Of a DNA stretch of 64,000 nt, positions 299 through 32,347 are shown piece by piece; within the stretch, counting starts at the first letter, position 1, and every line of letters starts with the position of its first letter. The position numbers were made by a program, and so were the translations under genes. Source of the DNA: Patescibacteria group bacterium (lineage in GTDB: Bacteria; Patescibacteriota; Gracilibacteria; Absconditabacterales; Absconditicoccaceae). The notes beneath the pieces were generated by a model that ran no database searches, was not told where the DNA came from, and was given only the letters and a program-made list of their open reading frames with translations. The DNA lies in NCBI GenBank assembly GCA_017992195.1, contig JAGOPC010000002.1:1-64000 (forward strand). Direction: 5' to 3'.

Positions 299-3200
299 AT
301 GAAAAAGATCATTCGAATACTAATTTTAATCCTACTGCTTTCTTCCACAAGAAGTGGAGCGGAAGACAGAGATGTTTTCTATCAGCAGTTGTATCAGAAA
401 TGGCTTTACAATAAAGCATTTCCTGATTATGCGGGCTTTGTGAATCACATCAGGTTAACAGAGAATACGTTTAACAAGATAATAACTGTAGCTGCCCAAG
501 ACAGTATGGATGCGCATAGGTTGACGATAGTTATTTATGGTGGGGCAGAATATAGTCCTGCTCAAAAAACTATTAATATTATGCCTGCATTAGAACTGCC
601 ACTTGGTTCTGTGGTAGAGAGGTGTATTGACGCAAGTCTTTATGACACTATATCTACTAGGGGGACTGTGTGGGGTACTGCCTTCACCATTATGCTGCCT
701 ATGGATACCTATGCGTGGGACTTTATGGCCGGAAAGTTTGGTCATTTTACCTCATATGGATATATTCATATGGATCCTTTAGCCTATTGTTTTTCATCTG
801 CAATACCCGGTGCAAATGATTTTCGCTTTAATGGCTACCAAGGTCAGCTAAATGGTAATATCTCTGGAGTTCTTGGTAACTTCAATATGGGATGGGGAAT
901 CTTCAGGGCGTTCGTGCCAAAAGGAGGTTATCATCAAATACTAGGTATATTTGATACTGGTGTAGATACTTTGCACGATGATGTTAATATTTATCGTATT
1001 GATACTGCTCGTAGCTATAATGTGCTTACTTCCAATCGTGATATTCGTGACTTTGACGGTCATGGTACACGTACATTCAGTTTGATGAGTGGTGAAGCAA
1101 ACAATACGAATGGTATTGTCGGTACGGATATTGTTGATACAGTGCAAGTATATAAAGTGATGGCAACCTCATCTGGCGGACCTATGTCTTTCGTAACAAC
1201 AGCAACTAATATGGCTCATAGTAATGGCGTGACGGATAAGAACTATTCGTTAGGAACCTTTACTTATGATCCTACTTTTGCTGTAGCTATTGCTATGGGT
1301 TATTCAACTTATAATTCTTGGAGCTACGCGGCTTCAGGCAATACAGGCTCTCTGTCTAATACTGTATATCCAGCATGTTTGCCTAAAGTATGGACGACTG
1401 TTGGAACTTTGTTGGGTGGAGGCGCATGGAGTGGAGGAACTACTACTGATAGTGCTTTTACGGGAGTTGTATCTTATCAAGTGTATGCTTCTGTACAGGG
1501 CACAACTACAAGCTGCACGCCTGCGAGTGGGACGTCTTTTGGTTGCCCACAGACTACAGGACAAGCCGCAATTACGCGTGCCCTGTTTCCTGATTTTACT
1601 TACGAGCAAACAAAGCAACTCTACATATCCTTTATGAATGGTGGTGGTTCTAGGACTCCTACCCATGGGAATGGAGTAGTAACTGATTCGTTGGTAAAAA
1701 GGGCGTTTCGAAAGTATATGTTGGCGAATGATACAATTACATTCGCTGCATGTACGGGTAAATACCGTATAGGCGCCTTACAACCTCGGTACGACTGGAT
1801 TGATAGTGGTTGGGCAGGCGCAAATCCTGTATTAGCCACGTTGAGCACTGATGACAGTGTTAACTCAAATTTAATCCCAGCAGGTACCTATGTTTGTAAG
1901 AGGGCTGTTGGATCAATGCCTCGAATTCTAGGTTGGACAACACCTTGGCGCGATACTATCAACCAGGTAGTTATTGTCAATCCAGGCAGTATGGTTACCC
2001 CTACCATTACAATTAACGCAACACCCGCAGGCTCTATTTGTGCAGGCACTTCAGTGTCTTACACAGCCACCCATACAAACGGTGGTACATCGCCAGCTTT
2101 CCAGTGGAAGGTTAACGGTGTGAGTGTTGGATCTTCGATTCCTACTCATAGCTATGCCCCTGCAAATGGGGATGTTGTTACTTGTACACTCACAAGCAGT
2201 CTTGCTTGTGTGACCACACCTACCGTGGTTGCTACTATGACGATGACAGTTAACCCTGTTGTTGTTCCAGCGGTGACTATTGTGGCTGCACCAGGATCTA
2301 CCATCTGTACAGGAAGTCCAGTCACCTTCACTCCAACGCCAGTTGGGGGAGGGACTCCTACCTATCAATGGTATAAGAACGGTGTCGTGGTAAGTACAAG
2401 TCCTACGTATGCAAGCTCTACGCTTGTTTCGGGAGATAATGTTTGGTGTGTGATGAGTAGCACTGCTCCTTGTGCAATGCCAGCTTCAGTTACTAGTAAT
2501 ACAGTAACAATGACGGTTGGTGCGCCTGTTACACCTACGATTAGCGTTTCAGCTAGCCCAAGTGGAACAGTATGTGCAGGTGCAAGTGTGACTTACACAG
2601 CTGCCATTACAAATGGTGGTTCATCGCCTACATATCAGTGGAAAGTGAATGGAGTGACAGTTGGTGGCTCTACAGCCGCTCATAGTTATGCGCCTGCAAA
2701 CGGCGACGTGATAACCTGTAAATTAACAAGTAGTCTTACTTGTGTTACAACAACAACTGTTACATCAACACCTATAACTGCTACTGTTAATCCTCTTACG
2801 CCTAACAGCGTGACGATTGCGGTGACGCCTAGTGCAACTATTTGTGCGGGCACAGCAGTTACCTTTACTCCAACACCAATTGGCGGAGGATCTACTCCTT
2901 CGTATCAGTGGAGGGTAAACGGCACAATCATGGGCACAGGCACGACCTATTCAAGTTCGTCGCTTGCGTCTAGTGATAATGTGTGGGTTACGATGATGAG
3001 TTCTGCTCCCTGTCCAACGCCGGCATCAGTTACCAGCAATACGGTGACAATGACGGTGAATCCAATTATAGTTCCTTCAGTTACTATTACCCCAACGCCA
3101 GGTTCTACAATCTGTGCTGGTACGCCGGTTACTTTTACTCTTGCATCAAGCGGAGGAGGGACGCCGAGTTACAGTTGGAAACTGAACGGGACAGCCGTAG

Positions 3201-4141
3201 GTACAGGTACGACCTATGCAAGTTCATCTCTCGTTACGGGAGACCTTGTATGGGTTGCAATGACGAGCACGGCAACGTGCGCGACGCCTGCTACGGTAAC
3301 AAGCAACACAGTTACTATGACTGTGAGTGCGCCTACAACACCAAGCTCAACTGCGACTCCTACATCAGGATCAATATGCAGCTTGAATTTGGATACCATA
3401 ACTGCTTCCTGCAGTGTTACCGGTACTACAGTACAATGGCAATCTTTCAGCGGAAGCTGGAGTAATATAAGCGGAGCGGTTGCTCCAATTTATTATACGC
3501 CTTTGTTGTCTCCGGGCACACATCAGTACAGAGCAGTGTTCACAATGCCTGCTGGATGTTTTACTCGTGCATACGATACCACACCTGTGGTGTCTATTAC
3601 GGTGATTGGCGCAGTGCCGGCACCTACGTGCACAGTGAGCTCCGGTATTCCATTCTGGACTGGTACTCATTACGATGTCATCTATACTGCAAGCCCTTCG
3701 GGTGGACCATATAGTTGGTATTGTAATGGTGCGTTCGCAGCTACGACACCCAGTAATACCTGGGTGCATACAATCAGTGCTTTGGGTGATACCGTCTTTG
3801 CGGTATATAAACCCGTTGGGTGCTTCGTGCCCGACACCAGCATTTCAAATGTCGTGCGTGTACCGAATCCTCTTGGTTTTGCCGAACCGGGGGTGCAAGT
3901 TAATGCATATGCTATATTTCCAAATCCTGTGAAGGATCTGTTGAGTATCAAAGGCGCGCATATAGATGATCAGGTGATCATTGAAAATGCGATAGGCCAA
4001 AACGTTTGGGATAGTAAGTTGGATGGTACAACATCTCAACAAATTAATCTAAGCACATTAACCCCTGGTATGTATATATTCAGGCTGTTTGATAAACAAC
4101 ATAACTTACTGGACGTGGAGAAATTCGTTAAAAAAGAGTAA
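299..4141 (+). CDS. Type IX-secreted subtilisin-like serine protease (S8) with Ig-like repeats
   Basis: Predicted secreted protease of 1280 residues. An N-terminal hydrophobic stretch (about residues 4-16) looks like a signal peptide. The subtilisin triad is visible: Asp219 in IFDTGVD, His255 in DGHGT and Ser413 in SGTSFGCP, with oxyanion Asn348 in SGNTG. From about residue 568 to 1110 there are five to six Ig/PKD-like repeats of roughly 89 residues, each with an ICAGT-type start and a YQWxxNG core. The last ~75 residues match a type A T9SS sorting domain (FPNPVKDLLSI, then TPGMYIFRL). T9SS is a Bacteroidota outer-membrane export system. The gene has no in-frame TGA and uses GGN for its many glycines, unlike the genes from 5.4 kb on. 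It is therefore probably foreign or a chimeric piece. Confidence 0.93.
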   Translation: MKKIIRILILILLLSSTRSGAEDRDVFYQQLYQKWLYNKAFPDYAGFVNHIRLTENTFNKIITVAAQDSMDAHRLTIVIYGGAEYSPAQKTINIMPALELPLGSVVERCIDASLYDTISTRGTVWGTAFTIMLPMDTYAWDFMAGKFGHFTSYGYIHMDPLAYCFSSAIPGANDFRFNGYQGQLNGNISGVLGNFNMGWGIFRAFVPKGGYHQILGIFDTGVDTLHDDVNIYRIDTARSYNVLTSNRDIRDFDGHGTRTFSLMSGEANNTNGIVGTDIVDTVQVYKVMATSSGGPMSFVTTATNMAHSNGVTDKNYSLGTFTYDPTFAVAIAMGYSTYNSWSYAASGNTGSLSNTVYPACLPKVWTTVGTLLGGGAWSGGTTTDSAFTGVVSYQVYASVQGTTTSCTPASGTSFGCPQTTGQAAITRALFPDFTYEQTKQLYISFMNGGGSRTPTHGNGVVTDSLVKRAFRKYMLANDTITFAACTGKYRIGALQPRYDWIDSGWAGANPVLATLSTDDSVNSNLIPAGTYVCKRAVGSMPRILGWTTPWRDTINQVVIVNPGSMVTPTITINATPAGSICAGTSVSYTATHTNGGTSPAFQWKVNGVSVGSSIPTHSYAPANGDVVTCTLTSSLACVTTPTVVATMTMTVNPVVVPAVTIVAAPGSTICTGSPVTFTPTPVGGGTPTYQWYKNGVVVSTSPTYASSTLVSGDNVWCVMSSTAPCAMPASVTSNTVTMTVGAPVTPTISVSASPSGTVCAGASVTYTAAITNGGSSPTYQWKVNGVTVGGSTAAHSYAPANGDVITCKLTSSLTCVTTTTVTSTPITATVNPLTPNSVTIAVTPSATICAGTAVTFTPTPIGGGSTPSYQWRVNGTIMGTGTTYSSSSLASSDNVWVTMMSSAPCPTPASVTSNTVTMTVNPIIVPSVTITPTPGSTICAGTPVTFTLASSGGGTPSYSWKLNGTAVGTGTTYASSSLVTGDLVWVAMTSTATCATPATVTSNTVTMTVSAPTTPSSTATPTSGSICSLNLDTITASCSVTGTTVQWQSFSGSWSNISGAVAPIYYTPLLSPGTHQYRAVFTMPAGCFTRAYDTTPVVSITVIGAVPAPTCTVSSGIPFWTGTHYDVIYTASPSGGPYSWYCNGAFAATTPSNTWVHTISALGDTVFAVYKPVGCFVPDTSISNVVRVPNPLGFAEPGVQVNAYAIFPNPVKDLLSIKGAHIDDQVIIENAIGQNVWDSKLDGTTSQQINLSTLTPGMYIFRLFDKQHNLLDVEKFVKKE

Positions 4142-17394: not shown

Positions 17395-18015
17395 CTACGC
17401 TGCTTCGAGAGTACATTCGTGCAGTGCGAGTGTAATCAGCTCGGGTAGGGTTTTAAAAGGCTCTTCAGATTTTGATAATGCTGTAAAGAGCGTCGTGAAT
17501 CTTTCGCCGTACTGATCTAGTGTTTTGGGGAATCCCAACGAATGAAACTCTCCGAATTCTTTGACCATGGTCTCATAAATGAGCTCTCCATAGCCTTCAA
17601 ATAAGGGAATACCAAGTGTCGGTATAGCCAATTCAGTGCATCTTTCGAAGATCTGCATGCTGTGGTCGTCATAGCCACCTATACAGAGGGCTATGTCTGG
17701 TTTCTTATGTTGAAACATGCTGTTTATGCGTTTCGTCATAAGTGTGTCGTAGGAGGCGTCAGACATTATAAAATTCTTTCGTAGCTTTGTGTAGTGACGA
17801 ACGAAGCTGTCTTCGCTTGCTTGAATGCATGGAGCATAACAAGCGGTCGCTGTCTCTACATAACTGGCCAGATAGTCACCGGTCGCATTGATCAGGATGA
17901 CGTCATTTTTGGTCAATATCTCTTGTATGCCGCCTATAAGAGCCATCCATCTGTCAGTCATAATGGGGGCGGAGATGTTACCAAAGATCAGTAGTGTCTT
18001 TTTGTGATTACTCAT
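17395..18015 (-). CDS. Hypothetical protein, Rossmann-like
   Basis: 206 residues with no in-frame TGA. The N-terminus KKTLLIFGNISAP looks like the first strand and loop of a Rossmann-type fold, and IALCIGGYDDHSM with a following IPTLGIPLFEGYGEL resembles nucleotide or nucleoside-binding loops of LOG/TIR-like folds. The resemblance is loose and I do not assign a family. It has its own terminator and starts opposite a long gap, so it is probably a single-gene transcript. Confidence 0.7.
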   Translation of the reverse strand: MSNHKKTLLIFGNISAPIMTDRWMALIGGIQEILTKNDVILINATGDYLASYVETATACYAPCIQASEDSFVRHYTKLRKNFIMSDASYDTLMTKRINSMFQHKKPDIALCIGGYDDHSMQIFERCTELAIPTLGIPLFEGYGELIYETMVKEFGEFHSLGFPKTLDQYGERFTTLFTALSKSEEPFKTLPELITLALHECTLEAA

Positions 18016-18407: not shown

Positions 18408-19775
18408 ATGTTATCTACTTATAAAAACAACCTCAATAATTTTATATCGTATAAGTCTGTTTCGACTGGTGAAGGTCATGAACAGGATATTGAGGACACA
18501 GTGAATTATCTTTCTGGCCTACTTTCTTGATGAGGATTTTCTGTGGACATCGTAAGAGGATATGGTAATCCAATAGTGCTCGCAGAGTATATGCATGATA
18601 GCTCTTTTCCTATATGTATCGTATACGGACATTATGATGTACAGCCTTCTGGCGATGCTGATAAATGGATAACTTGAAAGCCCTTTGAGCTTGTAGAAGT
18701 AGACGATAGACTCTACGCAAGATGAGCTGTAGATAATAAATGACAGATTATGATTCACATCACTACTATCTTGGAACTTGCGAAAAACAACAATCTGAAA
18801 TATAATATCAAATTTTTCATAGAATGAGATGAAGAGACTGGGGCGGCTGATATGGATAAGTTCACTGCAGACTACAAACAGCAACTTGCTGCTGATATAG
18901 CCTTAGTTTCTGATGGCGAAATTATCGGTGACAATATACCTACGATGGTAAAATCATTTAGAGGATGAGCAAATTTAGCTGTAAGTATAACAACAGCCAC
19001 CAATGATGCTCATGCGTGACTGTTATGAAACATCCTTCCAAATGCAGCATATCAGCTTATAAGCGTATTGGGAAAGATATACGATAAAAATAATATAATT
19101 ACAGTGCCCGGATTCTACGAGTGAGTGAATATAGATGCTAACATTAGAGAGAATAATGAGAAAATTCCTCTCGATATGCTCAAGATAAAAGAGATGTATG
19201 GAGCTAAGTGAACAGTTGTTCCCAAAGGATATGATTTCGCTACTGCGAATGGGCTCCTACCTACGATACAGATAAGCTGATTTGAAAGCTGATTTGTGAG
19301 TAACTACACATATGATTCACAAAAAGATCTGATAATGAAGACTGATGGAGGCTTCAACAATATTATTCCTGGGTCGGCAATAGCAAAAATGAACTTACGT
19401 TTTGCGCCATGACAGGATCCTGAGAGACTTACTAAGTGTTTTGAGAAATGGTTTGCAGCTCAGATGCCTTCATATGTAGAACGAAAGACGGTCTTTGATT
19501 CACCTTATCCTGCTACTGTTATCAATACTGATAACCAGTTGACGCTTGATACGATGCAACTTTTGGAGAACATATATCATCATAAACCAGTCTTGAGGTA
19601 CTGTGGCGCATCGGTGCCTATCACATGACTTCTGCAGGATTTTCTCTGACAGGAGGTTGTCGTTGTAGACCTTGGTAATGAAGACTGTAATATGCATGGT
19701 ATCAATGAGAACTTCAAACTTAATTGTGTGGAAAATGGGCTGCAGTTCAGTAAGCGCTTTTTTAGTAAAGAGTAA
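18408..19775 (+). CDS. M20 family metallopeptidase (dipeptidase-like)
   Basis: 455 residues. Di-zinc exopeptidase family that releases amino acids from short peptides. Metal ligands are seen in VYGHYDVQP (His75, Asp77), LYARGAVDNKG, FIEGDEETG, LVSDGE and a C-terminal His in CNMHG. The substrate loop RYCGASVPITG is also family-like. About fifteen TGAs encode Gly, so in a standard reading it nearly disappears. ATG 18408 opens the only frame that joins the N-terminal MLSTYKNNL to the conserved core. It is the first gene of the same-strand arginine island. Confidence 0.9.
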
Positions 19776-19899
19776 CCATATTATCCATTTATTATATATG
19801 CATAACTATGAAAATTATATCTCATTGCTTTGTATGGTCGGGAGAGTCGTAAGTAGATCGTAGCAAAATACACCCATCTTGCTATTCTTTATTTTTCTT

Positions 19900-21006
19900 A
19901 TGCATCCTCTCATGAATCGTATCGTAAAATTTGTAGAAGTGAAATCAGGTATCTGCGCGCCATGTGCTCGTTGAAAGTTAGGTGCCGAACTTGGAATCGA
20001 TGCTATTAAGAACGCTGCTATCACCAACGACTCATATCTTTTTGTAAAAGACTTTCCAGACAATGTTGTTGCGGTTGACATAGAAGATCAATGGAATTAC
20101 GCAAAAAATAATTTTGAAACATATAAAGCAGATCTACATTATAATGCGAAAAATGATCGTTTTGCTAGACATATCGCGTATCTCATAAATTCATGCACAA
20201 AAATCGCGAGCGCCGTAAAACAGACTCTCGATGAAAACAAGTTTCCTTTTGTGCTCGCCGGCGATCATTCAACAGCAGCGGGAACTATAGCCTGAATCAA
20301 AAAAAAATATCCAGATAAGCGTCTTGGTGTAATATGGATAGATGCGCACGCAGATTTACATTCACCTTATACGACGCCATCAGGAAATATGCATGGTATG
20401 CCTGTGGCTGTGGCTATGGGATTTGATAAGACAACAGCAGAGGAAGTACAGAAAGGTCTTGCTGCACAAAACCTTCATGGTAATGTCAACACATTAACTG
20501 ATAGTGAAGCTGCGCAGTGGGATGAACTTTGTCATCTTGGTGGAGTCTATCCTATGATCAAAAAAGAAGATATGGTATATATCGATATCCGTGATATCGA
20601 AAATGAAGAGAAATGGTATATCGACACATATGTAAAGCATTTCGATGGCGAATATCTGCAGGACCATGGTATAGATCATGTCGTAGAGCATACTCTGCAA
20701 CATCTCAATAACTGTGATATGATCTATGTGTCATTTGATATAGATTCAATTGATGGAAGAATAGTGCGTGGGACAGGAACTCCAGTGAAAGACGGACTCA
20801 CACAATATCAGGCGCAGGAACTCTTAAAAGCGCTTTATAAGTCAGAGAAGCTTGTGTCTCTGGAGATTGTCGAAATTAATCCGTTGCTTGATGACGTGCC
20901 TGGAAACAGCGTTGATGTCGACGGAGTAAGTAAGGCTTGTCAGTTCCAGACGCGCAATGGTACTGCAGAAATAGCGTTCAATATTATCAAATATATACTA
21001 CAATAA
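19900..21006 (+). CDS. Arginase/agmatinase/formiminoglutamase (ureohydrolase) family, probable arginase
   Basis: 368 residues. Binuclear manganese enzymes of this family hydrolyse arginine to ornithine and urea, or related guanidino compounds. Motifs are LAGDHS, WIDAHADLHSP (metal-binding DAHAD), SGNMHGMP and VSFDIDSIDG. The length and MHGMP motif favour arginase over agmatinase, but substrate cannot be proven from sequence. Two in-frame TGAs. The start could also be the ATG at 19912. It lies 24 bases before argS and within a cluster of arginine genes. Confidence 0.9.
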
Positions 21007-21030
21007 TTTTACTCAATTACCGCGCGAAGA

Positions 21031-23193
21031 ATGAATGATATTATAAAGCTCCCTGAAGATGACCATAAAATCAATGGTTCTCCATCTTTCCCTGTCACTA
21101 TCAATGAGATAGATTCACTTTTTCAGTGAACAAACAATATACAGGAGTATAACGACAGTCTCGATTTTTACATAAAGAAAAAGATCGCATTTCTCGATAA
21201 GAAGAATGCTGCGAAGCAGCACATAGAGAGGGCAATCTATCTGAAAAATGAACTTGTAGATAGGCTCAAGAATGATGTGATTAACTATGCAACTATTCTG
21301 TGAATAAACGATCTTACCGCTGATGATATACTCGTAGAGTTCATTGATCGTGCAAATTTTGGTACAGATATGACAATTAGAATGACATCTCTGATTAAAA
21401 AACTAGGTAAAGAATATAACAGTATGTTTCTTCCCGGATTGGTCAGTTACATGAAGGAAAACAACAGTGATGCGCAGGATGTTCAGTATAAAGGCATCTA
21501 TCTCAATATTCGTCTCAGTGATGAGCAATTGCTTTCTATGCTCGATCAGTCTATAAAGATGGGAGAACAGTATGGAGAAAGTGATATTCATGCGGGTCAG
21601 ACTATGATAGCAGAATACTCAAGTCCTAATGCCGCTAAGCATCTTCATGCGGGACATATCAGATCGACAGTGATCGGACAAATTCTTGCGAATATTTATG
21701 AAAAAACCGGCTACGGCGTTCATAGACTCAACCATATCAACGACCGAGGAGGGTTTGGAGAACTGATTGAATGATATGATCGTTGGTGAGCAAAGCTACA
21801 GGCGGAGTGATATACAGGTAATGACTTGTCATTTATGATATATTCCATCTATAGAAAAGCGGAAAAGGCGGTTGATGTTATTCAAGAGCAATGAGTGGAT
21901 TCCGTGAGCGAAGACGATAAAACATTCCTTAAAGATTATTTTGACTTTAGTGATGGAACATCGCTCGTGGCGGCTTTCGAGGACTACAAGACCAATTCAA
22001 CAGAAAGATTTCGTAGCCTCGAAGATGCGTGACAGCATGAGTTCGAAGGATGGAAGAAAATCTTTGGTTGGAGCCTAGAGGAGTTCAATAAATTTTATAA
22101 GGCATTGGATATCACACACGATTTTGTGATAGGTGAAAGTTTCTATGAGAAAATGGGTAAAAATATTGTGCAGGAGTGAATGGATAAATGAATTATCGTT
22201 CATTTCACTAAGGATATAGCTGATGACTACTATGCGAAATACCTTGAGGAGAATAAGGACCAAGGTGAGAATGTAAAAGAACAGAAGTCTAAAGAGATCT
22301 ATGAAGATGTGGGTTCATATGTGGCGTTGTTGGATAAGTATGAAAGATATGTGGTGATGAGATCGGATGGTGCTAGTATTTATGCGACAAGAGATCTTGG
22401 ATGTTTGTATTACAGATGCATGAACCGGGATCCTGAAACAGTAATGTATGAAGTATGACAGGAACAAACAGATCACTTCAACAAGCTTTTTGAAACAGCC
22501 AGAAAGTTCGGATGGGATAAGATGAATGATGGGAATACAAGAAAATTCCTGCATATCTATCACTGATTTTACGTAAATGCAAAAGATAAGAAGAAACTTT
22601 CTTCAAGAGAGTGAGCAAGTAATGTACACAATCTTATCAAAGAATCAGAAAAGTACTTCCATGAGAAATACGCATCAAAAAACAATTTTGAGGATGAGGA
22701 GATTAGTAACATCTCGAAGACTCTTGGGAAGGCGAGCATCATTATCAATGACATAAGAAAGGCAAGAACCAGTCCTGTATATGTAGATAGCGACCTTCAG
22801 AAAGCGCTAGCAGGCTTTGAAGAATCGGGTGGTCCATATCTGATGTATACTCTCTGCAGAGCAAAAAGTTTGCTTAAGAGAGCAGAAACGGATAAATTGT
22901 CACAGAATGTCGAAGAAGACTTGTCGCAAGAAAATGGCTTGGATAATATAGAGTCTGAGATCATAAAGAAGATAGCGATGCTTTCTGATATGATGATCAA
23001 GGCGAATGAAGAACACGAACCTTCTATACTGGTTGATTATGTTTATGCGCTTACGCAGCACTTCAATACCCTCTACAGTACTAAAAAATACCTCAGCTCA
23101 AGTAAGCTCGGTGTACGCATAACTAAGGGGTATATAAATGTTATGGCAAATGTCCTTAAGGTGTTTAACATCCAACCTTTGGAAAGAATGTAG
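21031..23193 (+). CDS. argS: Arginyl-tRNA synthetase
   Basis: 720 residues, longer than the usual 550-590. Class I synthetase that charges tRNA-Arg. Visible are EYSSPNAAKHLHAGHIRST (HIGH-type site HAGH), NHINDRGGFG, the KMSKS-like KKLSSREGAS and the C-terminal anticodon-binding DALR-like domain (SILVDYVYALTQHFNTLY). An insert between about residues 250 and 400 explains much of the extra length. There are many TGA glycines, including SREG next to the signature loop. Placement between arginase and the PEP-synthase-like gene is unusual. Confidence 0.95.
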
Positions 23194-23218
23194 TTTTTAC
23201 TATTATTATTCGTAAAAG

Positions 23219-26179
23219 ATGTCAGGCGAAATAATAAATGATGAATCTCTCGGTTTTACTATAACAGCATATGGGCATAAGAAAGAAAATGCTCCCAATG
23301 GTTCTGTAAGTGCTGGGAAATATCTTCCTATGTGAGGGAAAACTTTAAATCTTATGGAACTTGCTGAGTTTGCAAATAAGCGGTGATTTACTATCCCAGC
23401 AGGATATGGGCTCGGTTATGATGCTCATATGCATTACATCGAACACAATAATCTTCCTAGTCGCCTTATCGAAATTGTACTATTGATGAAGGAGCGCCTT
23501 GGAGGTAATATAGCTATCAGAAGTTCAGGAAATGTGGAAGATGGTAGTAAGGCAAGTGCTGCAGGAGTCTTTGAATCTCTTTATATTAGGGGTACTAAAG
23601 TAAAATTAGAGCATGGATGGGAAGACTTTGGGAGCGATCAGGCAGCAGTGGAATATGTTGTAAGGAAGATATATGATACGACTAGAAGCGATGGAGCTAT
23701 AGAATATTTTGCTAAAAATGATGTGAAGCCGGAGGATATAAAGATGTGACTTAGTGTGCAGAGACTTCTTGAAACGCCTATAGTTGCGTGAGTGATATTG
23801 GCTTCTCATGGCGAGGAGGGTAAAAGAGAAGTCTACGCAAATTACGTCGTTAATGATTTTGGCAATGTGATTGCTGACGGACATACGCCAGGAAGTTCTA
23901 TTTTTTTAAAAGAAGGTGTTGTACTTAGTCATGTGCAGAATTTTGACTCTCGTCAACGCGAGACTATGAGCGAACTGGCAAGTCATATAACAGAAGGCGT
24001 CGTGGATATCCTTGCCGGTAGTATTATGGACTCATATGAGTATTCAAATGGTGATATAGAATTCGCTATAGATAAAAATGCTTTCATCGAATTTATGGAT
24101 GCATTTGAGACAGAACATAAAGATGAGATATTGTCGTTATTTCAGGATATGGTAAGCGTTGATCAGTCGTTCGAACCTCATGTAAATAAACTTTTTGATG
24201 GATTGATGTATATTGCTGATGTTAGAAAGAATGAAACAGCGGAGCCAATCGTGGTTTATTTAAAAGTTACTAGAAGGGTCGCAGATCTAATCGATGGCTT
24301 GAAAAATATGCATGCGCTAATACAGGCGATGCCAGATAATCATGAACTAAAGACTCAGTACGGAAAAATTCTAATGAAGTTGATATCCGTACTTCAGTAC
24401 AGAAATCTTGTAAGACCTATGCCAAAGTATAATCCTAATGCAAGAGGTTCTCTCTCAAGCATTTATAACCCAGACGATACAGATAAACAAGAAATAGATG
24501 GTGTGGTAGTGAGAGTTGAAGATTTCAAAAGCGTGCATGAGATCGAGGCGGCTATAAAGGAATATAAAGCTGAAGGGCTGAAGGTGATTTTTGTCGGTAA
24601 GTCTCCTGCCATCGAGCATGAACATGCGCTTGCCTTGTCGCATGCAACGTTATTGGAGCGCTCAGGATCATGATCTCACATAGCGCTGAGAGCATGAGAA
24701 TGGAAGAAGCCTGCAATCGGTGGATGTAAGACAGATCACCTTCATTCCGGCCTGCATCTTGTTCTCGATTCTGATAAAATGACGCTTATAAATCAAGAAG
24801 GACACGATATACTTGAACCGCTCTTTACGGGAGAAAATATTAATCAGGAGTATATCAACGAACATCTTGCATTCACAGAGCAATATATCTTTACGAATGA
24901 ACCAACTGTAGATGAAGCAAAGAAATGGCTTCATGAGAAAATAGCAAAAGCCTGTGATAAAGAAGACGCTGATATCTTATCATCTATCCTTGAAGATAAT
25001 TGCGGCGCAATTCAACAAGCTACAAAAGAGGACTATGAAGAGTTGTGATTTGATTCGTGTCAGACGAATAGAAAGTTGTCTAAAATCATTGCACAAGTGA
25101 TGCTTATCGGTGGATATATATATGAGTCAGAAGTGCTCTGATATGCTGTATCGGTAGATGAAGCCATTACATATCTGAAAACGGATGTCTCTATTAGACC
25201 CGAATATCATACTCAGATAATAGATATCGCAAAGAAGTATGGTTCTAATCAGGAGTTTCTTTATCCTGGTGTAACGCCGTCAACGTCTGATACTAAGCCC
25301 TTAAAAGAGTATATTGATGATGTACTTATGTGAAAACCATCGGTGTCAGTAAGGGCTGTAACATGAGTTGGAGGTATAAGAAATGATAAGCTTTGGAATG
25401 AGGCTGTAGACTTTCAAAGTTTCCTTTCGCTCAAGATATGAGAAGATAAAAGATATTATCCTGGTGTAGTGCTGATCCGCCAGCTTTGTGAGAATGAACC
25501 GGCCAATATTCCTGCAATACAGTCTGTAAAAAATGATAATCTATATCTTTATGAAAAACTTATAGAGTTGAGAAGATCTATATTATCACAAAAAGAAAAC
25601 GTCGTAAGAGATGTAGCTATGCTTTGTTCGGCATATTTGCCATGAAAACTAAAGGGGGAGGTATATGCTGCAGCAGAGCCAAAAAGCATAGACAATATGT
25701 CGCTTCGCCTTTTGCAAGCATACCATTCACCAAGATCTGAATTAGATGCATTCCTTAAAATGCTTGAGCAGTTCGTGCAATGAGAAGAGATAGACAGTAA
25801 GAAGATAGATATTGTGTTTCATGAACTGGATATACAGATAAAATCTATGCAGACATTCAACTCTACGCTTCACATTCCATGGGCTTCATGACTTGCAAGT
25901 ATAGCAAATGGTATGATAGGAAACCTGAGGAATAGAGCTGGAAATTCGGCTATAAGATATGGGGTTGGTCGTGAAGATAAAAGCTTTGAGATCGTTCAGT
26001 ACGATTTGGCAAATGGTAAAACAAGCTATGTTGCTAAGATATATAACAATAAGTTATTTGGAGGGAAGCCAGTTGAAAGCTTTGTTATAAATGCAGAGCA
26101 TCCTATCAGAAAAGAGATAGAAGAAATGGGGTTTCTGCAGACAGCTATTAATTATCTGGGAAATTATTCGTCAATGTAA
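23219..26179 (+). CDS. PEP synthase/PPDK-like protein with unrecognised C-terminal half
   Basis: 986 residues in one frame over many TGAs. The N-terminal part resembles the ATP-grasp domain of PEP synthase/pyruvate phosphate dikinase: AIRSSGNVEDGSKASAAGVF (about residues 100-120) matches the family AVRSSA.xED..xSFAG. A swivelling phospho-histidine-like domain follows: ERSGSGSHIALRAGEWKKP with His487 in the place of the phosphorylated His. The PEP-binding TIM barrel expected next is not recognisable; the last ~430 residues are unknown. The canonical TSH reads GSH. It could be a diverged dikinase or phosphotransferase. It lies 33 bases upstream of arginine kinase. Confidence 0.7.
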
Positions 26180-26212
26180 ATTTCTTTATTTTATTCTTAT
26201 ATTTTAACAAAA

Positions 26213-27316
26213 ATGAATAGCATATTCCAAATCTCAGACTCTCTTACTGCCAAAGAAATACTTGCTCGCCTTGCTGAATGATCTTCACTGACTTACAAGG
26301 TGCTGGAAAGCGCATGAGAAGAGTATGTGCAAAAATTACTTGATCGAAAAACTCCATATGGTAAAAGTTTCATTCATCTCATCTCTTCAGGTCTTCATAA
26401 TCCTTCTAGCGAGATAGGTGTGTATGCAGATGGTGCTAAAACATATGAGGATGAACTATTTGGAGATTTTTTCTCAAAAATCATCCACTTATATCATGGG
26501 TTCGATAGAACTACGCAGAAACATACAGAGAACTTTGATATAGATGATATCGCCGTGGAAGATCTGAATGCGCATGCTACTGACTCATGTAAAGCACTTT
26601 CGGTTCGTGTCAGATATGCCTTCGCTTTAGACAACTTTCCATTCCAGTCGGCTATGACGCGCGAGCAAAGGAAAGATGCAGAATCAGCAATATGTGCAGC
26701 ACTTGATAACTTGCCGGAAGTTCTGCATGGCACCTATGAGTATTTGGAAAATATGAGCGCGGAGCGCAGGCAGCAGCTTATAACTGAGCACTTCCTGTCG
26801 CCTACTGAAGAGGATCCGTTCCTTGTAAATGCAGGTATGACCACTGACTGGCCTATAGGAAGAGGAATATATCTTTCAAACGATAAGACCTTTTTCACGC
26901 TTGTTAATGACGAAGATAATCGTGTCGGAGTGCTGGAGCAAGGATGAGATATAAAGAAAATATTTCAAAAGCTGGCGTCTGCAAATCATATATTCAATAG
27001 CTATCTTCGTATAGCGCGTAATGCTACTTATGGGAAGCTCGTGAGTTGTCCTACGAATATAGGAACAGGAATGCGTCTGAGTGTCATGTTGACGCTTCCT
27101 AAGCTGGCTCAGGATATGGATGCGCTTAAGAAGAAGGCAAAAGCTCTTTGACTGTCTGTCCGTGGCCACTATGGTGAACACTCAGGAGTATGATCTAGAT
27201 GAGAAGTGGACATCTCAAACAAGGCGCGTCTTGGTATATCAGAAAGAGAGATAGCGCAACTTGTCTATAACGGCGCACGTGAACTTATGAAAATGGAAAT
27301 AACATATACCTCATAG
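26213..27316 (+). CDS. Arginine kinase (phosphagen kinase), full length
   Basis: 367 residues, the size of animal arginine kinases (about 357). Transfers phosphate between ATP and a guanidino substrate. The N-terminal phosphagen kinase domain is present: LDRKTPYGKSFIHLISSGL and SEIGVYADGAKTYED, aligning with the substrate loop SGVGIYAPDAE. The catalytic domain has VRVRYAFALDNFPF, WPIGRGIYLSND, VNDEDN (Glu234), SCPTNIGTGMRLSVML (reactive Cys279), RGHYGEHSG (Glu322) and DISNKARLGISE. RGHYGEH and DISNKARLG are arginine/creatine kinase-like and unlike McsB. Six in-frame TGAs show it has been in this recoded lineage a long time. The usual NEEDH reads NDEDN, with a one-residue deletion after it. 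Confidence 0.93.
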
Positions 27317-27409
27317 TTTATGTTTTATTTTCGACATAGACGATCACTTTACATAAATATACTTCACTCAATGCAGAGTGGTTTTATCTGTAACATCTAA
27401 CTTTGAGAT

Positions 27410-28432
27410 ATGAATATTATAGACCTGCATGAGGATCGATCTGACAATGCCCTTTGTACAACGCATAAGGATTTTTTCGCCACAAATCATACTGACTGAT
27501 GGAACGCCGAAAAGATGGATGCTCTTAATCAGGTAGACCTTAAGAGGCTGCAGAAAAGTAAGGTTTCGGCTGTGATCGGAGCGATTTTCATAGACCCTGA
27601 TGCTATGATAACCACAAAAAATGATACACTGTGTTATCCTATCGATGCTGCTAGTTTTGAACTATGACGCCACTTGAAATACTATGATTGGGTGATCGAA
27701 AAATCAGCATGAGCTATCTATCAGATACTTTCGGGATTAGACTTGTCTGCTGAGGTGATGGCCTCATGAAAGATAGGGCTGCTCAAACATCTTGAAGGTT
27801 TTTACTTTGCTCGCCCGTTGGACAAAAACTTTGATATTCTGGATGATGTCTATGCGAAGTGAGTGAGATCAGTTGCCATGACCTGGTGAACAAGCTCTAA
27901 TATGGCAGGCGGGAATGATAAAAATGAGAGAGGCCTCAATGATATGTGAAAAAGATTTATAGAAAAACTTGCATCGAAAAAAATGCTTATAGATCTTGCG
28001 CATGCAAGCCAGAAGTCTTTCGAGGATATTATGCAGATAGTGAAAAAACCTGTGATGGTGTCGCATACGAAAATTACAGATAGGAGAGATAAAGCAAGAT
28101 TTCTGACAGTTGATCAGGCTAAAAAAGTGGCTGATGGGGGCGGAATCATAGGTATTATGACTATGAAATCTGAAGATGATCAGTTCTCTCTCGTAGATCT
28201 CGAAAGTTATGTTAAGCACATCAAACAGGCTATGATAATAGCGTGAGAGGATCATGTCGCGATGTGAACAGATTTTGACGGACTTACTAAAGAACATAGT
28301 ATAGAAGGCTTCATTGATATATGAAAAGTAGATCTCCTTATTATAGAGATGAAAAAACAAAATCTGAGTGATGCGCAGATAGAAAAATTCCTTGGAAATA
28401 ATGCATTGAGATTTATACAGGAAAACATATAG
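27410..28432 (+). CDS. M19 family membrane-dipeptidase-like peptidase
   Basis: 340 residues. Zinc dipeptidase family (renal dipeptidase type). Metal-site motifs are IDLHEDRSDN near the start, LIDLAHASQKSFEDI, KPVMVSHTK and GTDFDGLT near the end. Ten TGAs encode Gly, including the Gly of GTDFDG. No signal peptide is seen, so it is probably cytoplasmic and acts on imported or intracellular dipeptides. It lies 93 bases after arginine kinase. Confidence 0.88.
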
Positions 28433-28470
28433 ATACATCGTTTTTATCTTATTCCCACCTTTATGGTTCT

Positions 28471-29865
28471 ATGGCAAAATCAAAATTTATAGACCTTATG
28501 AAACAAACCTATGATTTCCCTTCAAAAGGTTTTGACCTTCACAGAGGCGCACTCACTTTCCAATGACTCGATCTTATGAAGCTTGTAAAGAAGTATGGAT
28601 CACCATTAAAGATAACCTATCTTCCTAAGGTGGCTCACCAGATTAAATACGCAAAAGATCTTTTTGACAAAGCAATTCACAAGCACAACTATCATGGAAA
28701 ATATACATATACGTATTGTACAAAAAGCTCTCATTTTAGCTTTATTCTCAATAAGGCTATAGATTCTGGTGCGCAACTTGAGATATCTTCAGCGTATGAT
28801 ATTTTGCTTATTAGAAAACTTTACAGTGAGAAAAGAATAGATAAGTCGATCCTTGTCATCTGTAATGGTTATAAGAGTCTGAACTATCTTGAAAATATTG
28901 TTTCATTGTGGAAAGAGGGATTTAAAAATATCGTCGTTGTGTTAGACAACCAGGATGAGATAGACAAGCTCGAAAAACTTGTAGATGAAGGAATATTTAA
29001 AATTGGTATAAGAATTGCCACAGAAGAAGAGCCAAAGTTTGAACAATATACTTCAAGACTTGGGATGAGCGCAAAGGATGTCGTGAAATTCTACAAGACA
29101 CACATCAAGAAAAAGAAGAAATTTCAGCTTGTTATGATGCACTTTTTCATAAACTCTAAAGTGAAAGATAATGCGTATTACCGGAGTGAACTTTCAAGGC
29201 TAGTAGAAGTATATTGTGATCTTAAATATGAGTGCAAAACTCTAGAGTTTCTTGATATTGGAGGAGGATTCCCGATTTGTACGGCTTTAGATATGGAGTA
29301 TGATTATGAGTATATGATAGATCAGATAGTTTGGTCTATCCAGCATATCTGTGATGCGAATGATATAGATACTCCAAATATTATTTCTGAATTCTGATCG
29401 TATACAGTAGGTGAAAGCTGAGCTATCATCTATAAGGTTATCGGAACAAAGCAGCAAAATGAAAAAGAAAAATGGTATATGATCAATAGCAGTTTCATTA
29501 CGACCCTTCCAGATACTCGGTGAATAGGGCAAAAGTTTATCATGCTCCCGCTCAATCTCTGGAATAAACCATATGGAAATGTAAATCTTGGTTGAATCAC
29601 TTGTGATAGCGATGACTACTATGATAAGGATAATAAATGAAATCAGATCATCCTTCCGGAGTATGGTAAAGAAGAGGACCTCTATATCGGGTTTTTCCAT
29701 ACAGGTGCATATCAGGAATCTATTGGAGGATACGGAGGAATACAGCATTGTCTTATACCAGCACCAAAGCATGTTATCATAGATGAAATTGGTGGAAAAC
29801 AGACTATCCATGAATTTGCTCCTGAACAGGACGCTGAACAAATGCTTAAGATATTATGATATTAA
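28471..29865 (+). CDS. PLP-dependent arginine decarboxylase-like protein (SpeA/fold III)
   Basis: 464 residues. Alanine-racemase-fold decarboxylase. YTYCTKSSHF holds the likely PLP lysine. Further motifs are GIRIATEEEP, TSRLGMS, MMHFFINSKV, FLDIGGGFPI (PLP phosphate loop), ISEFGSYTVGESGAI and HTGAYQESIGGYGG. These patterns follow biosynthetic arginine decarboxylase (SpeA), which makes agmatine for polyamines. SpeA is normally ~630 residues, so this is a shorter form. Diaminopimelate or ornithine decarboxylase activity is the alternative. Seven TGAs, one of them three codons before the stop. Confidence 0.8.
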
Positions 29866-29874
29866 TTTCTTTCT

Positions 29875-30372
29875 ATGTCGAACGATAAAATTGTGTTTTT
29901 GGACTGTGATGAAACATTGTGGACTTCTCCTAATAAGGATCGAATATGATCCGTGCCGGGCTCATTTGAAGTGATCGACAATAATGCAATTGTAAGATCA
30001 GATAGCGCTGTTTTTACACTAAAAAAAGACGTAAGACAAGCTTTGGGTGTTCTCAGGGATAGGTGATTCTGCTTATGAATCATAAGTGATAATATAGCGC
30101 AGCAAGTGGCTGAGGTGCTAAATCTTTTTCATCTTAGTGATTTTTTTGATCAAAGATTTATCTCTGTTGAACTCCGGGAGTCGGAAAAGCAACGCTGTCC
30201 TAAAGAGCAGATGATTAAAAAGCTTTTGGAAAAACATGAGTGAAACTCATTTAAAGAGGTCTATCTTGTGGATGATAAAGACTACAGACAGGCGATGCTT
30301 GATAATGGATATAAGTTTATCCACTCACAATATCCTTCGTTGCTGTCTGATATAGAGGAACTTGTGAAGTAA
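29875..30372 (+). CDS. HAD-superfamily phosphatase-like protein
   Basis: 165 residues. Motif I FLDCDETLWTS carries the nucleophile Asp, motif II is ISDN, and motif IV is YLVDDKDYR. The DCDETLW form is close to magnesium-dependent phosphatase-1/HAD III types. Four TGAs. It starts nine bases after the decarboxylase stop and is the last gene of the island before the terminator at 30441. The substrate is unknown. Confidence 0.85.
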
Positions 30373-30440
30373 CTCGTTGTAAATGGCTGTATTGAAAAAT
30401 AGCTGTTATTTTGTAATAAATTCTTGCATTTTCCCAGCTA

Positions 30441-30468
30441 AAACCTAGTATCTAACTCTAGGTTTTTT
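30441..30468 (+). terminator. Terminator at the end of the arginine island
   Basis: AACCTAG (30442-30448) pairs with CTAGGTT (30458-30464), then Ts. It lies 20 bases before alaS, so it separates alaS from the preceding run of genes. Confidence 0.85.
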
Positions 30469-30487
30469 ACATTCCGAAGGCTCATAG

Positions 30488-32347
30488 ATGACACTTAACT
30501 CCGATCAGATCAGACAGAAATATGTCGAATATTTCACTAAAAACGGACATGCACATATCGAGGCGGCGAGACTTTTGCCACAAGGTGATAGCTCATTACT
30601 TTTCGTGAACTCGGGGATGTTTCCACTTGTGCCATATTTATTTGGAGCAGATCATCCTGCAGGTACAAGGCTCGTAGATTATCAGCGCTGTTTTAGAACA
30701 GTAGATATTAACGAAGTTGGTGACCACAGACACACGACATCTTTTGAGATGCTTGGAAACTGGAGTCTCGGAGATTATTTTAAGAAGGAACAAATAGAGT
30801 TTTTGTTCACGTTTCTTTTTGACGAACTAAGTATAGATCCTTCAAAGATTTATCAGACTGTTTTCGGTGGAAGCGAAGAAGTCCCTGCTGATGCAGAAGC
30901 AATAGCTTTTATTAAAGAACAGTTCGCTAAGCGTAATGTCTCTGCAGAGCTATGACCCAAGACAACAGGTATCGGTGAAGATGGTCCATGAGTAGAGTGT
31001 GATTTTACGACACAAAGAATATTTGAATATTGAGATGACAAGAATCGGTGGCAGAGAGAAAAAGCTATCGGCGAACTTGGTGGTCCAGATAGTGAAACAT
31101 TTTATGATTCGGGTAAAGAGCATAATCCTGCATTTTGACCCTACTGTCATCCAAACTGTGATTGTGGTCGTTTCATCGAAATTGGAAATAGCGTCTTTAT
31201 GACCTATGTTCTCAGAGAAAGCGGTTGGGTTAAACTTGATCGTCAAAATGTAGACTTTGGTGGAGGACTTGAAAGAATAACTATGGCGGTTCAGTGATTG
31301 GGTAATGTCTTTAAGACAGATATATTCTCTTCATATATTCAGATATTGGAAGATCAGTATGGTGTCAAATACGAGGATCACGCAAAAGATGTCGAGGTGA
31401 TTGTTGATCATATTAGAGCTATCGCATGGTTGATCATGGACGGAGCATTGCCGTCTAATAAAGACCAAGGTTACTACCTCAGACGTTTGATCAGAAGAGT
31501 AGCTTCAAAGTTACAATTGCTTGGTGTAGATATGCAGGCGATCAATGTGTTGCTCGAGGCTGTGATAGAGAAACTTGGAAACACTTATACTGAGATGAAA
31601 GAGAAGAAAGAAGAGATCATGGCGGTCGTGGGTAAAGAAGTAAAAGCGTTTTCACAGAATCTGAAAAGTGGGTTACAGCATTTTGAAAAAGTTGTTGTAC
31701 GTGAAAATGGGATCAGTGCGGATGATGCATTTTTGTTGCAGACGTCGTATGGTTTCCCGATAGAGCTCATTATAGAGATCGCGAATGATAGAGGTTTGAA
31801 TGTGGATGTTGATGGATACAAGGCGAAGATCGAAGAGCATAAAAATATTTCTCGTCAGGGTATGGAGAAGAAGTTCAAGAGTGGGCTTGGAGATACGGGT
31901 GAGCAGACGGTGAAGTATCATACTGCGACGCATCTGTTACATCAGACCCTCCGTGATGTGCTTGGCGAACACGTGCAGCAGAAGGGATCGAATCTGACCG
32001 CTGAGAGACTGAGATTTGACTTCTCTCATCCGACTGCGATGACGAAGGAGCAAGTTGCTGAGGTGGAGCAGAGAGTTAATAATTTGATCAAAGATGGTTT
32101 CGCGGTAAGTGTGGAAACGATGAAGACTGATGACGCATTTGCAAGTGGCGCGCTCGGATTTTTCGGTGATAAGTATGGGCCAGAAGTGACTGTCTACACG
32201 ATGACAAATCCGCATGGTATTGTTATCAGCAAAGAAATTTGTACTGGTCCGCACGTGCAGAATCTCGATGGATTCGGTAACTTTAGAATTACTGAAGAAG
32301 CGAGTGTCGCGGCTGGAGTGAGACGTATCAAGGCTATTTTAGAATAA
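30488..32347 (+). CDS. alaS: Alanyl-tRNA synthetase, lacking the C-terminal domain
   Basis: 619 residues; typical AlaRS is about 870. Class II core motifs are present (FVNSGMFPLVPYLFG, RLVDYQRCFRTVDINEVG and FGGGLERITMAV), followed by the editing domain with HTATHLLHQTLRDVLG and the Cys/His site CTGPHVQN. The protein ends at ASVAAGVRRIKAILE, directly after the SAD/editing module, so the C-Ala (DHHA1-like) domain is missing. Five TGAs, one within the motif region. The stop is TAA and the next gene is 105 bases away, so this is an evolved short form and not a broken gene. Confidence 0.95.

Follow-up and report, generated by a model that had tools for sequence, protein, structure and literature searches.

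An eight-gene run with four arginine-type enzymes

Do eight adjacent genes in a bacterium of the Candidate Phyla Radiation (CPR), four of which encode arginine-type enzymes, form a unit that obtains, uses and stores arginine? CPR members are believed to live on other organisms and to possess only limited energy metabolism, and the gene run in question, at 18408-30372 on the + strand, includes a gene for a phosphagen kinase. It lies within a 64,000-nucleotide stretch, hereafter the window, which comprises positions 1-64000 of the 103,594-base contig C22 in a Patescibacteria genome of 1.01 Mb in 47 contigs (59% complete). An inspection of the letters and open reading frames alone, hereafter the sequence-only reading, had proposed that the run takes peptides to free arginine and from there to use or storage. 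Our analysis gives this proposal a more specific and, in our judgement, probable form: a horizontally assembled arginine island, in which peptides would yield free arginine for four arginine-using enzymes. The family of the kinase and the recurrence of an arginine theme around the same type of synthetase in relatives support the proposal, whereas conservation of the whole gene order does not.

All eight genes are intact and open under NCBI code 25 (UGA = Gly), which was used for translation throughout, and most are broken under the standard code. In order, they encode an M20 peptidase, an arginase-family enzyme, a second arginyl-tRNA synthetase (ArgRS2), a phosphoenolpyruvate (PEP)-synthase-like protein, a phosphagen (arginine-type) kinase, an M19 dipeptidase, an arginine decarboxylase (ADC) and a haloacid dehalogenase (HAD) phosphatase. 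The first gap spans 103-124 bases, depending on whether the arginase gene starts at TTG 19879 or ATG 19900, and the following gaps measure 24, 25, 33, 93, 38 and 9 bases. Pfam and NCBIfam back each of the eight labels at family level. The sequence-only reading was thus right to describe eight same-strand genes with short gaps, and its four arginine-type enzymes within one run are supported by the family assignments; all of its labels have domain matches, but "PEP-synthase-like" is the least secure, as this protein has no recognised PEP/pyruvate barrel.

The same reading had the run end at one terminator. A putative intrinsic terminator (30440-30470, + strand; stem AAAACCTAG, 9-nt loop TATCTAACT, then CTAGGTTTTTTA with a T run) does close the run upstream of the alaS start at 30488, and its helix is present in the minimum free energy structure of the gap. 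The length of its loop, 9 nt, probably explains its absence from the consensus-scan list. However, that scan also placed a weaker terminator-like hairpin with a T run between the kinase and M19 genes (27364-27381, + strand; folding z = -0.99 for the whole gap), which makes a single terminator and a single transcript uncertain; the island is probably transcribed as one or two units. Promoter-like matches were no more frequent than in shuffled sequences (58 vs 50, sd 7.6), and a search of the window for RNA regulators (guanidine riboswitch, T-box and others) found none, its sole RNA match being a tRNA-Leu.

The kinase is related to true arginine kinases

The kinase (26213-27316, + strand, 367 aa) carries both phosphagen kinase domains above cut-off (PF02807, 40.6 bits; PF00217, 171.6 bits) and matches Limulus arginine kinase (AK) chains in the PDB with 204-206 bits, against at most 67 bits for McsB chains. 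Identity as McsB was rejected on three grounds: PF02807 is present, the McsB models reach no more than 118 bits (cut-offs 381-679) and the chain scores favour AK. Alignment on Limulus AK showed that nearly all residues for ATP, guanidino binding and catalysis are present: S63, Y68, R124, R126, H185, E225, R229, C271, R280, R309, E314 and H315 are kept, and that the protein has an AK-type guanidino loop with Y68 whose length matches that of AKs; position G64 is a Glu. The ATP-site arginines are encoded by CGT or AGA and are therefore unaffected by the CGA/CGG recoding described below. By these measures the protein is a true arginine-kinase relative and not McsB, so that the arginine kinase of the sequence-only reading holds as a real phosphagen kinase by domains, scores and active-site residues. 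A phosphagen role is plausible.

This kinase is 37-41% identical to AKs of Campylobacterota and Deferribacterota. In a sample of 380 genomes from the phylum it was found solely in the window genome, and among 288 genomes of the class in two, the window genome and G456. The G456 kinase belongs to a separate lineage (28% identity) and is missing some of the ATP-site residues, with R280 replaced by Lys and H315 by Ser; this divergent phosphagen kinase gene lies directly downstream of a pyruvate kinase gene on the same strand (L012:3534-6224), consistent with an energy role. Around the AK genes of Campylobacterota and other bacteria, no relatives of the other seven island genes occurred. Viral contigs yielded no AK or PEP-synthase-like relative and just one short ArgRS match, and viral carriage of the island was rejected on this basis. 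A further AK gene was seen in the unclassified metagenome-assembled genome "bacterium isolate WY3.bin161" (L023:9878-10972), near a gene for an ABC-F protein that is 51% identical to one in the window genome; it may represent another CPR phosphagen kinase. In a search of the open literature, arginine kinase and Gracilibacteria appeared together in no paper, nor did phosphagens and CPR, and novelty is stated with that reserve.

Arginase-family enzyme, decarboxylase and second synthetase

The arginase-family ureohydrolase (19879-21006 with the TTG start, + strand, up to 375 aa; PF00491) keeps the metal ligands and catalytic motif of the family: GDHS, DAHAD, SGNMHG (within SGNMHGMP), DID and the Glu of EIVEINP. 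Agmatinase was rejected as its identity, the agmatinase model scoring 73 bits vs 221 bits for arginase. The ADC (28471-29865, + strand, 464 aa) is a SpeA-like pyridoxal phosphate (PLP) fold-III enzyme with PF02784 and a sub-threshold PF00278 match. SpeA is still its best model (LysA reaches 97 bits), and its best PDB matches are biosynthetic ADCs. The motifs of the window ADC (P0007) include the PLP lysine in YCTK85, TCDSD (TCDKD in genome G569) and GAYQE (shared with G569). Together with the enzymes of G569 and G506, it forms a separate subgroup in which EFGSYTVGES takes the place of EWG-Y-AAPAQ.

ArgRS2 (21031-23193, + strand, 720 aa) has the class I catalytic and DALR domains (PF00750 and PF05746) and keeps both class I signature motifs, as HAGH (HIGH-type) and SSREG (KMSKS-type); its TIGR00456 score of 240.6 bits falls slightly under the cut-off of 261.65. 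A housekeeping-type ArgRS of a different subgroup, only 20% identical to ArgRS2, is encoded separately on contig C14 (L038:16632-18554), and the island ArgRS is a second copy in this genome, a fact unknown to the sequence-only reading. We compared 49 genomes of the family, from 22 genera; the compared genomes are incomplete and, in the window genome, four short contigs were read as N. ArgRS2 is present in four of the 49, the other three being G446, G540 and G544, with 36-41% identity to the window protein. A tie between ArgRS2 and arginine-codon reassignment is unsupported because of this narrow distribution.

A class-wide profile search of 353 genomes added eight further ArgRS2 genomes in two other families, f160 and f164. 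In the ArgRS tree, the window protein groups with those of G540 and G544 (support 80/81) and that of G446 with G598 of f160 (96/96). The tree thus mixes families, and the ArgRS2 gene has therefore moved between them. The f164 genomes mostly have a single ArgRS candidate (two in G457, several in G509), and the ArgRS2 type may be their ordinary ArgRS.

ArgRS2 recurs beside other arginine enzymes

In three relatives, further arginine enzymes are encoded next to ArgRS2. In G540 it is followed by a GNAT protein, a deiminase/DDAH-fold protein, a CtlX-type citrulline hydrolase, an S-Me-THD/DUF917 protein and an M19 dipeptidase. The order in G544 is ArgRS2, deiminase-fold protein, GNAT, deiminase-fold protein, DUF917, M19 and CtlX. 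In G569, of family f160, the locus (L142:1340-10888) reads ATP-grasp, AstE/AspA-type deacylase, argG, argH, GNAT, ArgRS2 and ADC; argG and argH score above the NCBIfam cut-offs, and the ADC encoded directly after ArgRS2 is 44% identical to that of the window. M19 homologues with 43-45% identity to the island M19 share a contig with ArgRS2 in G544 and, as two copies, in G540. Counting the window, the association rests on four loci. An arginine unit across relatives is therefore borne out in part, by the adjacency of ArgRS2 and ADC in G569 and the proximity of ArgRS2 and M19 in G540 and G544, whereas the remaining components are nearly private to the window genome within the family: the ADC and PEP-synthase-like genes were seen there alone, as was arginase save for a weak ureohydrolase in G512, and the AK save for one divergent kinase. 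In the class, the PEP-synthase-like gene had no close relative, just partial distant matches.

Contig C38 of G540 (L124-L126) contains ~45 kb rich in amino-acid enzymes, including DapDC-like and glutamate/tyrosine-decarboxylase-like PLP enzymes, three aspartoacylase-like, two M19, two DUF917, Glu/Leu-dehydrogenase-like and deiminase-fold proteins. In G446 (L128:623-9539), ArgRS2 is followed by genes for a PanP-like PLP decarboxylase, a nucleotidyltransferase-domain protein, a 788-aa protein with no Pfam match, a small kinase-like protein and a radical-SAM-like protein; this locus looks like a small-molecule cluster.

The composition of these neighbourhoods bears on an alternative in which the genes make or detoxify an arginine-derived compound, such as an antimetabolite or small peptide. 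ArgRS2 would then be a self-resistant synthetase or a supplier of arginyl-tRNA, while AK, ADC, ureohydrolase, HAD phosphatase and dipeptidases would tailor the compound or confer resistance. Metabolic clusters that encode an additional copy of an aminoacyl-tRNA synthetase are a known form of self-resistance, which counts for this alternative, as do the GNAT, ATP-grasp, AstE/AspA deacylase, argG-argH and PLP decarboxylase genes around ArgRS2 in relatives. However, the window island contains no recognised assembly enzyme (non-ribosomal peptide synthetase, tRNA-dependent ligase or enzyme for ribosomally synthesized, post-translationally modified peptides), the shared enzymes are mostly of catabolic types, and several f164 genomes apparently have no ArgRS other than the ArgRS2 type, which is therefore not a resistance form by nature. 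We consider a compound cluster unlikely.

The same loci could instead reflect arginine depletion or competition, in which the enzymes strip free arginine and the second ArgRS sustains translation when arginine is low. Three arginine-consuming types in the window (arginase, ADC and AK), non-orthologous consumers (deiminase-type and CtlX) in G540 and G544, each with ArgRS2, and separate housekeeping ArgRS proteins in the window genome, G540 and G544 are all consistent with depletion. It fits poorly with G569, where ArgRS2 is coupled with the arginine-making argG-argH, and appears very unlikely to us.

Peptidases, PEP-synthase-like protein and phosphatase

The remaining genes flank or separate those for the arginine enzymes. 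The M20 dipeptidase-type metallopeptidase (18408-19775, + strand, 455 aa; PF01546 and PF07687) includes 16 glycines encoded by TGA. Its best NCBIfam model is the dipeptidase PRK08201, with a score below cut-off, and metal-ligand motifs were identified by eye (HYDVQP, ARGAVDNKG, EGDEETG, SDGE and MHGIN). The M19 enzyme (27410-28432, + strand, 340 aa) belongs to the membrane-dipeptidase family (PF01244, 178 bits). A second M19 dipeptidase (L060:17989-18945) is encoded on contig C37 of the same genome, which also bears a weak paralogue (L060:2743-3321) of the divergent gene that precedes the island (17395-18015, without a Pfam match). Cyanophycin was rejected as a source of arginine dipeptides, since a motif search for cyanophycinase in the sequence stretches examined found nothing. 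No PADLOC match was obtained, and anti-phage defence was likewise rejected.

The PEP-synthase-like protein (23219-26179, + strand, 986 aa) consists of an ATP-grasp part (PF01326, 55 bits), a mobile His domain (GSH487IALRAGEW; PF00391, 19.9 bits, sub-threshold) and an unmatched C-terminus of ~430 aa; this C-terminal half gave no PEP/pyruvate barrel match in Pfam or NCBIfam and no match in the PDB. A single-sequence AlphaFold model was uninformative (pLDDT 39). The last gene encodes an HAD-IIIC/MDP-1-like phosphatase (29875-30372, + strand, 165 aa; PF00702) that exceeds the TIGR01681 cut-off (54.6 bits) and falls below that of TIGR01685 MDP-1 (47.1 bits vs 53.75), with the motifs DCDET, SDN, K and DD recognisable by eye. 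At a guess, these two proteins have a phosphoryl-transfer role tied to the kinase.

Origin of the island and the genetic code

The island has a GC content of 38.2%, compared with 42.6% in the window flanks, and ranks second lowest among 123 12-kb segments of the genome. TGA makes up 8-57% of the Gly codons in each island gene, as in the host. A low GC content combined with host-like use of TGA is consistent with a donor that also reads UGA as Gly and not with a recent standard-code donor, and the island was probably acquired in this way. An empty insertion site could not be located by flanks, as alaS is too divergent within the family. In another part of the window, 299-4141 encodes a 1280-aa subtilase-like protein with Ig/PKD-like repeats and a Por secretion (type IX) C-terminal tail; unlike in its neighbours, none of its 117 Gly codons is TGA, which suggests a recent acquisition.

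Across the genome, the residue that faces CGG in standard-code homologues is Trp in 18% of cases (for TGG, 26%) and Arg in 4% (for CGT, 55%). From these alignments, CGG is read as Trp in this genome, in addition to UGA as Gly. CGA aligns with Arg at 9%, a less clear signal, and is probably also read as Trp. Three island codons face Trp in relatives: CGG350 of the ADC (29518-29520), CGA239 of ArgRS2 and CGA10 of M19. Our translations read CGA/CGG as Arg and are consequently wrong by 0-2 residues per gene. Published work assigns both CGA and CGG to Trp in Absconditabacteria, and CGG to Trp in some Gracilibacteria (PMC8629427). tRNAs with CCG (L079:6896) and UCG (L052:6322) anticodons have a G73-like discriminator end, and a second UCG tRNA (L028:3921) ends in A.

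A model for a probable arginine island

In the explanation that we favour, the M20 and M19 dipeptidases would free amino acids, including arginine, from peptides of host or environmental origin. The arginase-family enzyme would convert arginine to ornithine and urea, the ADC would convert it to agmatine, and AK would form phosphoarginine as a reversible ATP buffer, while ArgRS2 would go on charging tRNA from the shared arginine pool. Such a buffer would suit a cell that draws ATP from its host in bursts. Based on family knowledge, the deiminase and CtlX enzymes of G540 and G544 would give ornithine, as arginase would here. We infer which substrates are used, which way arginine flows, that the genes are co-transcribed, that the kinase works as a phosphagen system and why there is a second ArgRS. 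This second synthetase might shield translation when other enzymes drain arginine, might confer self-resistance against an arginine analogue, or might simply have hitch-hiked.

A number of observations weigh against this explanation. The kinase does not have the D62-R193 closure pair of monomeric AKs (Ser and Pro instead), shows a gap of one residue next to the NEED motif, and sits on a very long branch that the tree did not assign to an origin. The D62-R193 pair is not strictly needed for membership of the phosphagen-kinase superfamily. The ureohydrolase falls below the TIGR01229 arginase cut-off (220.8 vs 227.6 bits) and carries His and Glu in place of the Asn and Asp of solved arginases, which we take to be substrate-contact residues; free arginine is therefore a likely but not a certain substrate, and the altered residues would suit a modified substrate, as in the compound cluster considered above. 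The SpeA models give the ADC 168-174 bits, below their cut-offs of 369 and 624, and a motif search of the 59% complete assembly recognised neither agmatinase nor agmatine deiminase. None of the shared arginine families occurs near ArgRS2 in G446, G598 or six f164 genomes, so the link between ArgRS2 and arginine enzymes is not universal. Finally, the complete eight-gene set or order was kept in no other genome examined, contrary to the conserved gene order by which the sequence-only reading was to be checked.

Absence of the full set from the relatives would also fit a chance neighbourhood, in which unrelated peptidase, translation and kinase genes were joined by transfer with no joint function. 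No evidence ties the M20, PEP-synthase-like and HAD genes to partners, and CPR genomes are dense in same-strand genes. Chance nevertheless seems improbable given four arginine-type enzymes among eight genes, and given three further genomes in which ArgRS2 recurs with ADC or M19 and with additional arginine enzymes. As a bolder and tentative extension of the arginine island, a transferable ArgRS2 in UGA = Gly CPR bacteria might anchor exchangeable arginine enzymes, as an arginine-control or antimetabolite island that here also includes a phosphagen system; we regard this as doubtful, if worth stating.

If true, a CPR phosphagen kinase would offer a first way into the question of how these cells buffer ATP taken in bursts. 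A second ArgRS that recurs with varied arginine enzymes points to arginine as an actively managed node, and the lineage managing arginine in this way has also given up arginine codons.

Comparison with known systems

Bacterial arginine kinases are listed from Desulfotalea psychrophila, Myxococcus xanthus, Sulfurovum and Moritella (PMC6429109). The window AK shares their two-domain phosphagen kinase architecture and differs in its location in a run of arginine genes, its long branch and its changed D62/R193 and G64 positions. SpeA-type polyamine loci in other genomes of the class, which combine ADC with agmatinase and a deoxyhypusine-synthase-like gene, encode an ADC of similar length and family; the island ADCs of the window and G569 belong instead to the separate subgroup and are linked to ArgRS2 without agmatinase. 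Arginine deiminase/CtlX loci, which occur with ArgRS2 in G540 and G544, likewise lead from arginine to ornithine without ATP gain, whereas the window island has an arginase-family enzyme in that place. The PEP-synthase-like protein shares the ATP-grasp N-terminal domain and mobile His motif of the PEP synthase/rifampin phosphotransferase (dikinase) family, but the barrel of that family is not recognised and its C-terminal half is unlike Pfam and PDB entries. Self-resistance clusters with a duplicated synthetase, familiar from general knowledge, also place a second synthetase among small-molecule enzymes; the window island differs from these in having no recognised antimetabolite pathway.

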